Below are positions 30,390 to 36,976 of a stretch of DNA of 64,000 bases, one piece after another. Numbering within the stretch: position 1 is the first letter of the stretch; every line of letters begins with the position of its first letter. Under the pieces are notes generated by a model, which was not told where the DNA came from, ran no database searches, and worked only from the letters and a program-made list of their open reading frames with translations. Source of the DNA: Mobilicoccus massiliensis. GTDB lineage: Bacteria; Actinomycetota; Actinomycetes; Actinomycetales; Dermatophilaceae. The position numbers were made by a program, and so were the translations under genes. The DNA lies in assembly GCF_000826525.2 (NCBI RefSeq), contig NZ_LN651331.1:218323-282322 (forward strand), written 5' to 3'.

Positions 30390-33158
30390 TCAGCCGGTGT
30401 TCTGCAGCCCGGCAGCGGCACCGTTGACGGTGAGCAGCAGCGCATGGGTCCACGCCGCCCGGTCGGGGCGCGCGTCCGCGCGTGGATCGGTCGGCAGGCG
30501 CAGCACGCGCAGCGCCTGGTGCTGCATGTGGCTCAACGCGTCGATGTACGGCGCGCGCAGGCTCACGGCCGTCTGCAGGTGCGGCTTGTGCTCGAGCAGT
30601 TCCTTCTGGTCGAGCACCTCGAGCACGAGCCGGCGGGCGAGGTCGTACTCGGTGAGGATCTGGTAGGCGAGATCCGGTCGCTCGCCCAGCGCGAGGAATC
30701 GCTCGGCCAGCGCACGGTCGGCCTTGGCGAGGCTCATCTCGGCCACGTCGATCATCGACGCGAACAGCGGCCACTGCGCGTACGCCCGGCGCAACAGGTC
30801 GACGTCGCCGACCGCGGCCAACCCGCTGCCCAGGCCGTACCAACCCGGCAGGTTGACCCGCGTCTGGGCCCACGAGAACACCCACGGGATCGCACGCAGA
30901 TCGTCCAGGCTGCGCCCGCTCTCCTTGCCGCTGCGCCTCGACGGCCGCGAGCCGAGCCGCAACTCTCCGATCTCATCGAGGGGGCTCACCGCGGCGATGA
31001 GATCGGCGAACCCCTCCTGGGTGACGAGGGCGCGGTAGCACCCGCGGCTCTGCGCGTCGATCGTCGCCGCGAGGTCCCGATAACGGGCGTCGGCCTCCTC
31101 GCGTTCGCGGGCGATGTCGGGTGCGTCGGCGAGCAGCACCGCCGAGGTGAGGCGCTCGAGGTGTCGTTGGCCGATCATCACGTCGCCGTAGCGGGCGAAG
31201 ATGACCTCCCCCTGCTCGGTGACCTTGAAGCGACCGTCGACCGAGCCGCTCGGCTGGGCGAGGATCGCGCGGTGCAGAGGCCCGCCGCCGCGGCCGAGCG
31301 AGCCGCCGCGACCGTGGAACAACGTGAGCTCCACGTCGTTCTCGCGGGCCCAGGCGACGAGTTCGCGTTCGGCCCGGTCGAGGGTGAGGGTCGCGCTCGC
31401 CGGTCCGACGTCCTTGGCCGAGTCGGAGTACCCGACCATCACCTCGACGCGGCGACCGCGCGCGTCCCAGATCTGCTGCGTGCCCCGCAACGTCGCGAGG
31501 TCGGCGAGGATCCTGGGCGCGTTCTGCAGGTCCTCACCGGTCTCGAAGAGCGGGATGACGTCGAGCGTGAGCGGGCGTTCGCCCACGGCGAGGCGGGCGA
31601 GGGCTCGCACGGTGGCGACGTCGGCGGCATGGCGCGTGAAACTGATGATGTACCGCCCGCAGCTGCGCTCGCCCCACCGCCGCTGCAGCCACGCGATGAC
31701 GCGGATCGTGTCGAGCACCTCGCGGCCCTGATCGGTCGTCGGCTGCACGTGCCGTGGCCAGCCCTCGCGGGCGAGTCGGTCGAGGAACTCGGCGTCGGTC
31801 AGCGCGGCCTGCGGATCGGCGACGTGCTCGGTGCCGAGCTGTTCCAGCAGGTCGAGCAGCACGGCCTCGTGCACGTGACTGTGCTGGCGCACCTCGAGTT
31901 CGGCGAGGTGGAACCCGAAGGTCTCGACGAGCCAGATGAGGGTCTGCAGTTCGCCGCGCGCCGTGCGGTGATCCCCGGCCGCGTCGAGGCTGCGCTGCAC
32001 GAGGCGCAGATCCTCCAGCATCTCCTCGGGGCCGGCGTAGGTGAGACCGACCTGCTCGTTGAGCGTCGCCTCCACCCGGGCCGCCACGACGAGCAGCTTC
32101 TGGCGGTGGGGTTCACCGGGGGAGTTCTTGACGATCTCGGTGAACGCGGCAGACATGGCCACCGCGTCGGCCTCGAGCGAGGCGAGCAGTTCGTCGGAGG
32201 GGGGAGTGGTGACGACGTCCATCGTCAACGTGCGGGCCACTCGGTCGGCGTGCGCGGCGAGCAGGGTGAGCGCCTCCCGGGCCTGGGTGGCGAGCGTCTC
32301 GCGGGTCACGGCGGCGGTGACGTAGGGGTTGCCGTCGCGGTCACCGCCCACCCACGTGCCGAACCGCACGAAGGCCGGCACCGGCTCGGCGTCGCGGCCC
32401 GACTCGCCGGGCAGCGCGGTCTCGACCGTGCGGTAGAGGCGTGGCACCGCCCGAAAGAGCGTCTGGTCGAACACCGAGAGCATGGTCTTGACCTCGTCAC
32501 GGGGCTCGGGCCGGTCTCGGCGCAGGGTCGAGGTGCGCTGGAGGATCCCGATGTCCTCGAGCAGCCGCCGCCGGGCGTGCGCGCGCTCACTCGCCCCGTT
32601 GTGCGAGTCGTCGTAGCGGTCGAGCTGGGCGGCGATGCGCACGAGAGCGGAGGTCACCGCCCGGCGGCGTGCCTCGGTGGGATGCGCCGTGAGCACGGGG
32701 TGGATGCGCAGCTCCTGCAGCCGCGCGTCGAGCGAGGTCCCCCCACGGGCGAGTTCGGCGATGGCCGGGGCCACTCCACCGGACTCGATCCCACCGGTGA
32801 ACTCCCCGTCCTCGGCGCGCAGGGAGCGCACCCGCTGCCGTTCGTCGGCGAGGTTGGTGAGGTGCAGGTGGACGGTGACGGCACGGGCCACCTCGGCGGT
32901 GGTGGCCGCATCGAGTGTCGCGACGATGGCGTCGGCCGCAGAACCGACCCGCCCGTTGTCGCTCTCACGGCACGCGTCCACCAACGCGCGAACCGTGCGC
33001 ACCAGTGACGCGCCGCCGGCCTCGTCGAGTACCTGCTCGTGCAGCTCGGTGAGCAGGTCGAGGTCACGGCGTAGTGCCGCCGAGTGCTGGGCCTCGTGCT
33101 GTTCGGGGTCCGGTGTCGTGGGGTGCGCGGATGCCTGAGCAGGGGCGTTGACGACCAT
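30390..33158 (-). CDS. ppc: Phosphoenolpyruvate carboxylase
   Basis: Anaplerotic enzyme that carboxylates PEP with bicarbonate to oxaloacetate. 922 residues, a normal bacterial length. Signatures: VLTAHPTEARRR with the catalytic His, GGDRDGNPYVTAAVTRETL, MVGYSDSAKDVGPAS, the second His/Arg motif FHGRGGSLGRGGGP and the C-terminal QNTG allosteric tail. The ATG at 33158 has no Shine-Dalgarno but TACACT (33165-33170) lies six bases upstream, indicating a leaderless transcript; the longer frame upstream is Arg-rich and non-coding. Divergent from dxs. Confidence 0.97.
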   Translation of the reverse strand: MVVNAPAQASAHPTTPDPEQHEAQHSAALRRDLDLLTELHEQVLDEAGGASLVRTVRALVDACRESDNGRVGSAADAIVATLDAATTAEVARAVTVHLHLTNLADERQRVRSLRAEDGEFTGGIESGGVAPAIAELARGGTSLDARLQELRIHPVLTAHPTEARRRAVTSALVRIAAQLDRYDDSHNGASERAHARRRLLEDIGILQRTSTLRRDRPEPRDEVKTMLSVFDQTLFRAVPRLYRTVETALPGESGRDAEPVPAFVRFGTWVGGDRDGNPYVTAAVTRETLATQAREALTLLAAHADRVARTLTMDVVTTPPSDELLASLEADAVAMSAAFTEIVKNSPGEPHRQKLLVVAARVEATLNEQVGLTYAGPEEMLEDLRLVQRSLDAAGDHRTARGELQTLIWLVETFGFHLAELEVRQHSHVHEAVLLDLLEQLGTEHVADPQAALTDAEFLDRLAREGWPRHVQPTTDQGREVLDTIRVIAWLQRRWGERSCGRYIISFTRHAADVATVRALARLAVGERPLTLDVIPLFETGEDLQNAPRILADLATLRGTQQIWDARGRRVEVMVGYSDSAKDVGPASATLTLDRAERELVAWARENDVELTLFHGRGGSLGRGGGPLHRAILAQPSGSVDGRFKVTEQGEVIFARYGDVMIGQRHLERLTSAVLLADAPDIAREREEADARYRDLAATIDAQSRGCYRALVTQEGFADLIAAVSPLDEIGELRLGSRPSRRSGKESGRSLDDLRAIPWVFSWAQTRVNLPGWYGLGSGLAAVGDVDLLRRAYAQWPLFASMIDVAEMSLAKADRALAERFLALGERPDLAYQILTEYDLARRLVLEVLDQKELLEHKPHLQTAVSLRAPYIDALSHMQHQALRVLRLPTDPRADARPDRAAWTHALLLTVNGAAAGLQNTG

Positions 33159-33343
33159 GGCGGCAGTGTAGGAACGAGGTTCCACCGGCCTTCGAGGTCG
33201 TCTGCGGGATGGACACCGACACGGGGATCGGCGCGGACGACGGCCACGTCGTCGCGCTCGGCATCCACGCAGTCCCCGCACATGTCGTTCCAGGCCCGAC
33301 GACGTATCGTCGCCTGGTGGACCCGTCATGAAAGGACCGTCCG

Positions 33344-35308
33344 TTGAGCCTGCTCGCCTCCGTCACGACCCCCGCAGATCTCGATTCGCTGTCTCCGGCA
33401 CAGCTCACCGAGCTCGCCGCCGAGATCCGCGCGTTCCTCGTGGAGTCCGTGTCTCGCACCGGCGGCCACCTGGGCCCCAACCTCGGTGTCGTCGAGCTGA
33501 CGATGGCGGTCCACCTGGCGTTCGAGTCCCCGCACGATTCGATCGTGTTCGACACCGGCCACATCTCCTACGTGCACAAGCTGCTCACGGGGCGGCAGGA
33601 CTTCGACCGGCTTCGCTCCGCGGGCGGGCTCTCCGGCTACCCGAGCCGGGGGGAGTCCGAGCACGACATCGTCGAGAACTCCCACGCCTCCACGAGCCTG
33701 GCCTGGGCCGAGGGCATCGCCAAGGGTCGCCGGCTCGCGGGCGAGACCGGCACGCACACCGTGGCGGTCATCGGCGACGGCGCGCTCACCGGAGGCATGG
33801 CCTGGGAGGCGCTCAACGACATCGCGGCCGACAAGGACCTGCCGCTCGTCATCGTCGTCAACGACAACGAACGCTCCTACGCGCCCACGACGGGTGGCCT
33901 TGCCGAGCATCTCGCCGTGCTGCGTGCGACCCGTAGCTACGAGCAGATGATGTCGTGGGGCCGGCGCACGATCACGAGCACCCCGGTGGTGGGGCAGCGC
34001 GCGTTCGAGGCCCTCCACGGCATGAAGAAGGGCCTCAAGGACATCATCGCGCCGCAGGTGCTCTTCGAGGATCTCGGCCTCAAGTACCTCGGTCCCATCG
34101 ACGGTCACGACGTGCACGCGCTCACCACGGCGCTGCGGCGCGCGCGCGACTTCGGCGGCCCGGTCATCGTCCACGCCATCACCCAGAAGGGTCGCGGGTA
34201 CGAGCACGCCCGCAACAACGACGACGACCAGTTCCACGCGGTCGGCGTCATCAACCCCGAGACGGGACTGCCGCTGGAGATCGCCGGTCGGAGCTGGACC
34301 GAGAACTTCTCCGACACGCTCTGCGAGCTCGCCGAGGAACGGGCGGACATCGTCGCGGTCACCGCCGCGATGCTCATCCCCGTCGGTCTGCGGGGCTTCG
34401 CCGACGCGCACCCGCAGCGGGTCTTCGACGTCGGCATCGCCGAGCAGCACGCGACGGTCATGGCTGCGGGGCTCTCCTACGCCGGGATGCACCCGGTGGT
34501 CGCGATCTATTCGACGTTCCTCAACCGGGCCTTCGACCAGATGCTCATGGACTGCGCCCTGCACCGCCAGGGCGTCACGTTCGTCCTCGACCGCGCGGGG
34601 GTGACCGGCAGCGACGGGGCCTCGCACAACGGCATGTGGGATTTCGCGCTCACCTCGATCGTCCCCGGCATCCGCGTGGCCGCGCCGCGCGACGGCGAAC
34701 AGGTGTCGTTGCTGCTGCGTGAGGCCGTCGCCGTCGAGGACGGCCCGACCGTCCTCCGCTTTCCCAAGGGCTCCGAGCCCGAGACCATCCCGGCGGTCGC
34801 GCGCCTCGGTGACCTCGACGTCATCGCCCGGTACCCGGCCCCCGCGGGCCAGGCGGGGGAGGTGCAGGAGGCGAGCGACGCCTCGGTGCCGCAGATCACC
34901 GACCTGCCGGACCTCGACCCGTCCGAACAGGTCGACGTCCTGCTCGTCGGGGTCGGGGCCATGGCCCAGGTCGCCGTCGACGCGGCGGCCGTCATCGCCG
35001 AGACCGGAGCCCGCGTGCAGGTCGTCGACCCCCGCTGGGTGCTGCCGGTCTCCGACGACCTCGTCGCGGCCGCGCGTACGGCGCACTACGTCGGGGTGAT
35101 CGAGGACCACGTCGCCGCCAACGGCATCGCCGCCGCGCTCGACGCCGCGCTCGCCGAGACGGGCGAGCCGGTCGCGGTCCACCGCTTCGGCCTGCCCAAG
35201 CGGTTCCTCGACCACGGCAGCCGCAGCGAGATCCTCGCCGAGGCGGGCCTCACCGCTCCGGCCGTCGCGGAGGCCGTCGTCGCGGCCCTGCGCCCCGCCG
35301 TCGTCTGA
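33344..35308 (+). CDS. dxs: 1-deoxy-D-xylulose-5-phosphate synthase
   Basis: First enzyme of the MEP isoprenoid pathway, condensing pyruvate and glyceraldehyde 3-phosphate; thiamine-diphosphate-dependent. 654 residues. Visible: [20 protein letters not shown], the TPP/Mg site [25 protein letters not shown] with the catalytic Glu, and the pyrimidine-domain [18 protein letters not shown]. The start is taken as TTG 33344 with AAAGGA upstream; an ATG at 33328 is out of frame. It converges on the HTH-MurA-like gene across a long hairpin. No other MEP genes are in the window. Confidence 0.95.
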
Positions 35309-35415: not shown

Positions 35416-36945
35416 TCAGATGTCGCGGAAGGTCTCCACCGTCGCGCCGAGGTCGTTGAGACGCTGCGCGAGGTCCTCGTAACCGCGGTTGATGACGTAG
35501 ACGTTGCGCAGCACCGAGGTGCCGGGGGCGGCGAGCATCGCGATGAGCACGACGACACCCGGGCGCAGAGCGGGCGGGCAGATGACCTCGGCCGCGCGCC
35601 ACCGGGTGGGGCCGTCGATGAGCACCCGGTGCGGGTCGAGCAGCTGCACCTTAGCGCCGACCTTCGTCAGCTCCGTGAGGTAGATGGCGCGGTTCTCGTA
35701 CACCCAGTCGTGGATCATCGTGCGGCCCTCCGCGCAGGCGGCGATGAGCGCGAAGAACGGCAGGTTGTCGATGTTGAGCCCGGGGAACGGCATCGGGTGG
35801 ATCTTGTCGATCGGCGCCTTGAGCGGCCCGGGGTGGGTCGTGAGGTCGACGAGACGGGTCTCGCCGTTGGCCGAGCAATACTCGTCGCTGAGCTCGTACT
35901 TCATGCCCATCTCGGTGAGCAGCGCGAGCTCGATCTCGAGGAACTCGATGGGCACCCGGCGAATGGTGATCTCGGACTCGGTGACGACGGCCGCCGCGAG
36001 CAGGCTCATCGCCTCGATCGGGTCCTCGCTGGGGTGGTACTCGACGTCGACGTCGATCTCGCTGCAACCCCGCACGGTGAGCGTGGTCGTGCCGATCCCG
36101 TCGATCTGGACTCCGAGCTTCTGCAGGTAGAAGCACAGGTCCTGAACCATGTAGTTGGGGCTCGCGTTGCGGATGACCGTCTCGCCCGCGTACCGCGCCG
36201 CGGCCATGAGCGCGTTCTCGGTGACGGTGTCGCCGCGCTCGGTGAGCACGATCGCCCGGGTCGGGGCGATGCCCTCGTGGACGGTGGCGTGGTAGGCGCC
36301 GTGCGTGGCCTCGACGTCGAGCCCGAAGTGGCGCAGGGCGGTCATGTGCGGCTCGATCGTGCGCGACCCCAGGTCACAGCCACCGGCGTACGGCAGCGAG
36401 AACGAGTCGAACTCGTGCAGCAGCGGGCCGAAGAACATGATGATCGTGCGCGTGCGCCTGGCCGCGGCCTCGTCGAGGGCCGCGAGGTCGAGGCGTGCCG
36501 GCGGGACGATCTCGAGGTCGCTGCTGTCGGGCAGCCAACGGGTCTTCACGCCGATGCTCGAGAGAACCTCGAGGATGCGGTTGACCTCCTCGATGCGTGC
36601 GATGTTGCGCAGCGTCGTGCGGCCCTTGTTGAGCAGCGAGGCGCACAGCAGAGCGACGGCGGCGTTCTTGCTCGTCTTGACGTCGATCGACCCGTGCAGC
36701 TTGGTGCCGCCCTCGATGCGCAGGTGCTGCGGGCCCGAGGTGCCCAGCGAGACGAACTGGGAATCGAGGTTCTCACCGATCCGCGAGAGCATCTCCAGGC
36801 TGAGATTCTGCTTGCCCTGCTCGATGCGCACGACCGCGCTCTGCGACGTGCCGAGCAGATCGGCAAGTTCGTTCTGCGTCATGCCCTGGTGCCTCCGAGC
36901 TTCTCGAATGAGCGTGCCGATGCGGGCCAGGTAGTCCTCTTTCAT
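35416..36945 (-). CDS. HTH-domain fusion to MurA-like enolpyruvyl transferase
   Basis: 509 residues. Residues about 6-65 form a Cro/XRE helix-turn-helix (LIREARRHQGMTQNELADLLGTSQSAVVRIEQG). The rest is an EPSP-synthase-fold UDP-N-acetylglucosamine 1-carboxyvinyltransferase. Lys93 (TSKNAAV) and the PEP/fosfomycin-site Cys190 (GGCDLGSRT) with Arg195 match the catalytic loop of MurA, although the loop differs from the usual GGCxIGxRPVD. Such fusions occur in actinobacteria beside a separate MurA, so it may be a second, regulated or moonlighting enzyme. A 12-bp palindrome lies 15 bases upstream. Likely leaderless (TATCAT seven bases before the ATG). Confidence 0.85.
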   Translation of the reverse strand: MKEDYLARIGTLIREARRHQGMTQNELADLLGTSQSAVVRIEQGKQNLSLEMLSRIGENLDSQFVSLGTSGPQHLRIEGGTKLHGSIDVKTSKNAAVALLCASLLNKGRTTLRNIARIEEVNRILEVLSSIGVKTRWLPDSSDLEIVPPARLDLAALDEAAARRTRTIIMFFGPLLHEFDSFSLPYAGGCDLGSRTIEPHMTALRHFGLDVEATHGAYHATVHEGIAPTRAIVLTERGDTVTENALMAAARYAGETVIRNASPNYMVQDLCFYLQKLGVQIDGIGTTTLTVRGCSEIDVDVEYHPSEDPIEAMSLLAAAVVTESEITIRRVPIEFLEIELALLTEMGMKYELSDEYCSANGETRLVDLTTHPGPLKAPIDKIHPMPFPGLNIDNLPFFALIAACAEGRTMIHDWVYENRAIYLTELTKVGAKVQLLDPHRVLIDGPTRWRAAEVICPPALRPGVVVLIAMLAAPGTSVLRNVYVINRGYEDLAQRLNDLGATVETFRDI

Positions 36946-36952
36946 GAGCTCG

Positions 36953-36976
36953 ATGATAACTCACATGTGAGATAAC
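36953..36976 (-). promoter_or_regulatory. Palindromic operator in the promoter of the HTH-MurA gene
   Basis: CTCACATGTGAG (36960-36971) is a perfect 12-bp palindrome flanked by GATAAC on both sides (36955-36960 and 36971-36976). The -10 candidate TATCAT (minus strand, 36953-36958) touches it and ends seven bases before the ATG, so the palindrome falls in the -10/-35 spacer. The gene's own HTH domain is the obvious candidate ligand. Confidence 0.65.

Follow-up and report, generated by a model that had tools for sequence, protein, structure and literature searches.

In the 64,000-nucleotide stretch of Mobilicoccus massiliensis DNA analysed here (the window), one gene very probably encodes an active MurA (UDP-GlcNAc enolpyruvyl transferase) that is the sole copy in the genome and represses its own transcription. 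The gene occupies 35416-36945 on the reverse strand as a single-gene unit with an ATG start, and its 509-residue product, here called HTH-MurA, combines two domains in one open reading frame. An XRE/Cro-type helix-turn-helix (HTH) domain at residues 13-61 (36763-36909, reverse strand) matches Pfam HTH_3 with an E-value of 1.9e-13 and a score of 50.7 bits against a curated cut-off of 23. A MurA domain at residues 75-505 (35431-36723, reverse strand) was recognized by profile, homology and Foldseek, with the Pfam EPSP_synthase/MurA match at residues 78-496 (E 6e-45). Together the two matches confirm the fusion of a DNA-binding domain to a MurA-like enzyme that had been described in an earlier note on this DNA. 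The best solved relatives of HTH-MurA are MurA enzymes, and the NCBIfam MurA subfamily model NF006873 scored it at 333 against a cut-off of 297. An AF2 model built from 54 orthologues (pLDDT 87.9) has HTH helices at residues 2-19, 24-31, 35-42 and 50-60, and its top Foldseek matches are MurA crystal structures (target TM-score about 0.9). The closest relatives of the HTH domain are the XRE/HipB-type antitoxin repressors (TIGR03070 couple_hipB; HipB, C.BclI), which regulate themselves through a palindrome as we propose for HTH-MurA. Unlike these repressors, HTH-MurA has its HTH fused to an essential enzyme, and no toxin gene adjoins it.

The gene lies tail-to-tail with dxs, which ends at 35308, and its neighbourhood includes ppc, a fadB/fadA pair and an RNase D-like gene. 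The phosphoenolpyruvate carboxylase gene (30390-33329, reverse strand), whose product consumes the MurA co-substrate PEP, is 2-5 kb from the HTH-MurA gene; this closeness is probably a coincidence.

Upstream of the ATG is an 18-bp putative operator, TATCTCACATGTGAGTTA (36957-36974, reverse strand), which is conserved in orthologues as TATCTCAnATnTGAGATA. The core of this dyad is the perfect 12-bp palindrome CTCACATGTGAG at 36960-36971, which the earlier note had located in the promoter spacer. The GATAAC direct repeats that it had described around the palindrome are present at 36955-36960 and 36971-36976, but they are mostly the outer arms of the 18-bp dyad, and separate direct-repeat sites were ruled out. 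The same note had regarded absence of the palindrome from relatives carrying the fusion as evidence against self-regulation; a weight matrix instead found TATCTCAnATnTGAGATA no more than 70 nt from the start codon in 131 of 138 distinct orthologue upstream regions. Only three further matches occurred in 826 kb of the same loci, each of them an additional site farther upstream of the HTH-MurA gene. In Dermatophilaceae, Streptomycetaceae, Nocardioidaceae, Dermabacteraceae and others, 10-11 nt separate the operator from the start codon. Across the 60 bp upstream of 41 genes whose proteins are less than 88% identical, the only positions conserved outside the dyad were the base adjacent to it and the last T of a TAnnnT hexamer. 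Pattern scans of the M. massiliensis genome, allowing up to three mismatches, found the operator to be unique, with one three-mismatch match judged to be noise; the suggestion that the palindrome might also mark other cell-wall genes failed at this threshold, as none of them had a match. Likewise, no operator was found upstream of the canonical MurA genes in 11 genomes. Three Streptomyces loci (L065, L071 and L072) have a second operator copy, AATCTCATATCCGAGATA, about 128 nt upstream of the HTH-MurA start, which could allow looping.

The operator overlaps a predicted -10 element, TATCAT (36953-36958, reverse strand), located 7 nt before the ATG. Among 52 distinct sites, 50 have such a TAnnnT hexamer, whose first two bases are the final TA of the dyad, and in 47 of the 52 there are 6-7 nt between it and the start codon; no conserved -35 element was found in the orthologue promoters. 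With the usual spacing of bacterial promoters, a -10 element at this position would put the start of transcription at the ATG, and the HTH-MurA transcript is probably leaderless. Since the operator covers the -10 element and the spacer, its position is suited to repression, and it is this position that points to repression rather than activation. We propose that the N-terminal XRE-type HTH binds the 18-bp palindrome, presumably as a dimer, and that the bound protein would block RNA polymerase at a leaderless promoter in which the operator runs from the spacer into the beginning of the -10 element and transcription would begin at the ATG. When the MurA level falls the promoter would be freed, and when the level rises the promoter would be closed, thus forming a negative feedback.

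This feedback may also depend on a ligand. Binding of UDP-GlcNAc and/or PEP in the MurA domain could make the HTH bind the operator more or less tightly, so that HTH-MurA would be a BirA-like trigger enzyme that senses the supply of precursors, a proposal that we make tentatively. MurA closes its two lobes on UDP-GlcNAc, the HTH is joined to the MurA domain by a short linker (residues 65-69) with low confidence in the AF2 model, and the fusion of HTH and enzyme has been kept in every orthologue examined. On the other hand, no sequence feature coupling the two domains was found in HTH-MurA, and plain feedback on the protein level works without any ligand. In E. coli, the biotin ligase BirA responds to its product biotinoyl-AMP by repressing the biotin operon; its fold is unrelated to that of HTH-MurA. 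Unlike BirA, HTH-MurA has a single predicted target, its own gene, and is not known to be under ligand control. It is conceivable, though doubtful at present, that a whole family of actinobacterial MurAs, often the only MurA of the cell, are UDP-GlcNAc/PEP-responsive repressors of their own transcription, and that fosfomycin-type inhibitors would alter this response.

Returning to feedback by the protein level, the question of whether this HTH reads this operator can be addressed by comparing the two across the orthologues. The recognition helix QSAVVRIE (residues 35-42; 36820-36843, reverse strand) contains two residues, 36 and 39, that co-vary with operator bases. A symmetric AAC...GTT operator was present in all 9 rows with Gly-36 or with Thr or Gly at position 39, compared with 1 of the 59 other rows (Fisher test, 2e-10, a value that ignores relatedness and refers to residues picked after inspection). 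On a tree built from the MurA domain alone this pairing needs 5-6 changes; the well-supported independent pairs agreed in 3 of 3 cases with none against, a number too small to be significant (sign test, p 0.25). In the Aeromicrobium locus L120, both half-sites have changed symmetrically (TATCGCA...TGCGATA) along with Ser-34 to Thr and Ala-37 to Val. Furthermore, the operator was missing in 4 of 4 rows in which the recognition helix has been rewritten, namely Arsenicicoccus and two relatives (L068, L126 and L189) and genome G022 (L022), all of which retain the -10 element and the MurA domain. There were also counter-examples: a small clade (L023 and L052, weakly L047) has an intact HTH with a degraded left half-site, and L192 has an operator variant without the expected residue change. 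From the co-variation and the loss of the operator where the helix is rewritten, we infer that the HTH of HTH-MurA binds the operator in its own promoter. The self-regulation put forward in the earlier note is thus strongly supported, by operator conservation across families, uniqueness in the genome, co-variation with the helix, and joint loss.

The same comparison bears on the idea that another XRE regulator reads a genuine operator and that the HTH of HTH-MurA is a structural or oligomerisation remnant. Similar palindromes do occur at unrelated XRE genes without the fusion, such as the twin sites at an XRE-cupin gene in L186. However, in loci with the fusion the site is found only at the HTH-MurA gene, it is unique in the M. 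massiliensis genome, its bases follow residues 36 and 39, and it is gone where the helix is rewritten, and we consider a different reader improbable. Among the fusion-less genomes G024, G049, G144 and G215, none of the operator-like matches adjoins a MurA; the match in L186 is at the XRE-cupin gene and the rest are near unrelated genes. In L186 (positions 1501-2160; genome G215), two near-identical TATCTCATATATGAGA-type palindromes lie just upstream of the gene for the XRE-cupin regulator. It appears that a similar operator is used by other XRE regulators.

The MurA domain carries the residues expected of an enzyme. Lys-93, Asn-94, Cys-190, Arg-195, Asp-393 and Arg-461 are invariant in 108 distinct aligned orthologues, Arg-166, His-200 and Arg-419 are likewise invariant in a 54-row set, and Arg-487 belongs to the same list of invariant or nearly invariant residues. 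Lys-93, Cys-190 and Arg-195, which the earlier note had reported as kept, are thus all present and invariant. These catalytic residues fall in the alignment columns of the active-site motifs of canonical MurA (e.g. 1UAE, 5U4H; TIGR01072), with which HTH-MurA shares its fold and 25-34% identity; canonical MurA has neither HTH nor operator and differs in its phosphate-loop and Cys-loop sequences. In HTH-MurA, KTSKN replaces GAKN, the Cys loop has GGCDLG, the UDP/phosphate loop has TERGDTVTEN, unlike canonical MurA, and PGLNIDNLP surrounds the catalytic Asp. In the tree, HTH-MurA forms a single clade separate from canonical MurA with 100/100 support. Its active site is of the Cys type (Cys-190 codon at 36376-36378, reverse strand, in the GGCDLGSR loop), and this Cys is always kept in HTH-MurA, in contrast to the Asp found in several canonical actinobacterial MurAs. 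In mycobacteria the Cys-to-Asp change in MurA is linked to fosfomycin resistance. Among the canonical MurAs that accompany HTH-MurA (L197, L199-L202, L206 and L208), several have Asp where the catalytic Cys would be (GGDAIGSR).

The genomic context points in the same direction. In the M. massiliensis assembly (3.84 Mb, rated 100% complete), the PF00275 profile had two matches, HTH-MurA and AroA, the latter recognized by reading L002 and by the aroA model, and a tblastn search with the whole HTH-MurA as query found no further MurA. The second MurA assumed in the earlier note is therefore absent from this genome, and its picture of a MurA-derived regulator standing beside the real MurA is wrong here. 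Because MurB is present, M. massiliensis is expected to make peptidoglycan, and with no other MurA in the genome, HTH-MurA must supply this step. In its own family, all 24 sampled genomes have the fusion, and 19 of them have no other MurA. When the class was sampled (296 genomes, together with the 80 best named loci), the fusion was found in 97 of the 296 genomes, with 65-77% identity to other genera, and it was the only MurA in about 35 of these 97, single-contig genomes included. Streptomyces-like families in this sample carry both HTH-MurA and a canonical MurA. Two genomes of one genus in the same family as Mobilicoccus (G073 and G301) lack HTH-MurA and have two canonical MurAs instead, which suggests that HTH-MurA was replaced there. 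In three assemblies HTH-MurA looks split by a frameshift (L024 and L189, in G003 and G097, and genome G291), which may reflect a sequencing error or a pseudogene; no other MurA was found in G003 and G097.

An inactive or altered MurA domain, which would make HTH-MurA a sensor only or an enzyme for another sugar nucleotide, is very unlikely. HTH-MurA misses the cut-off of the NCBIfam equivalog model TIGR01072 (314 against 392.7 bits), its loops GGCDLG, TERGDTVTEN and PGLNIDNLP are specific to the family, and Streptomyces has a second, canonical MurA. These features are outweighed in our judgement by the invariant catalytic residues and by the status of HTH-MurA as sole MurA, along with MurB, in its own genome and many relatives, and an active enzyme is the best explanation of the sequence. 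The window contains 46 perfect 12-bp palindromes, so that a palindrome of this length is not significant by itself and its weight comes from conservation; a chance origin has next to no probability and is already refuted by the fixed distance of the site in those 131 upstream regions, with nothing comparable nearby. We strongly favour HTH-MurA being both an active enzyme and a regulator of transcription.

The Streptomyces MurA2 (SCO5998, sven5810, vnz_28735) is an orthologue of HTH-MurA, about 74% identical to it along the whole protein, HTH included; sven5810 and vnz_28735 are taken to be this orthologue by gene name. As with HTH-MurA, the operator closely precedes the ATG (e.g. L109, S. violaceoruber), and unlike M. 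massiliensis, Streptomyces also has a canonical MurA. Published studies name SCO5998 as one of two UDP-GlcNAc transferases (PMC12161575), list its promoter as SigB-dependent (PMC8346170), and report S. venezuelae murA2 as a target of BldM-WhiI, with its promoter footprinted (PMC4125116). In another study, overexpression of murA2 did not reproduce the phenotype of whiI overexpression (PMC11005364). Enzymes that repress transcription are already known, with BirA and PutA as examples (PMC6978683). Neither the passages cited here nor searches of open-access literature yielded a description of the MurA2 HTH or of a self-operator.

Most likely, many actinobacteria have a MurA, often in a single copy, that limits its own production. 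MurA is known to be controlled chiefly after translation, by CwlM in mycobacteria and by ClpCP and ReoM in Firmicutes. In much of the Actinomycetes, including Streptomyces, this essential enzyme appears to be the transcription factor of its own gene. A single protein and its 18-bp site would suffice to test such feedback at the entry to cell-wall synthesis directly, and the operator could be used to report the occupancy or inhibition of MurA. If the sensing of precursors is true, the first committed enzyme of peptidoglycan synthesis would read UDP-GlcNAc/PEP and directly set its own transcription.
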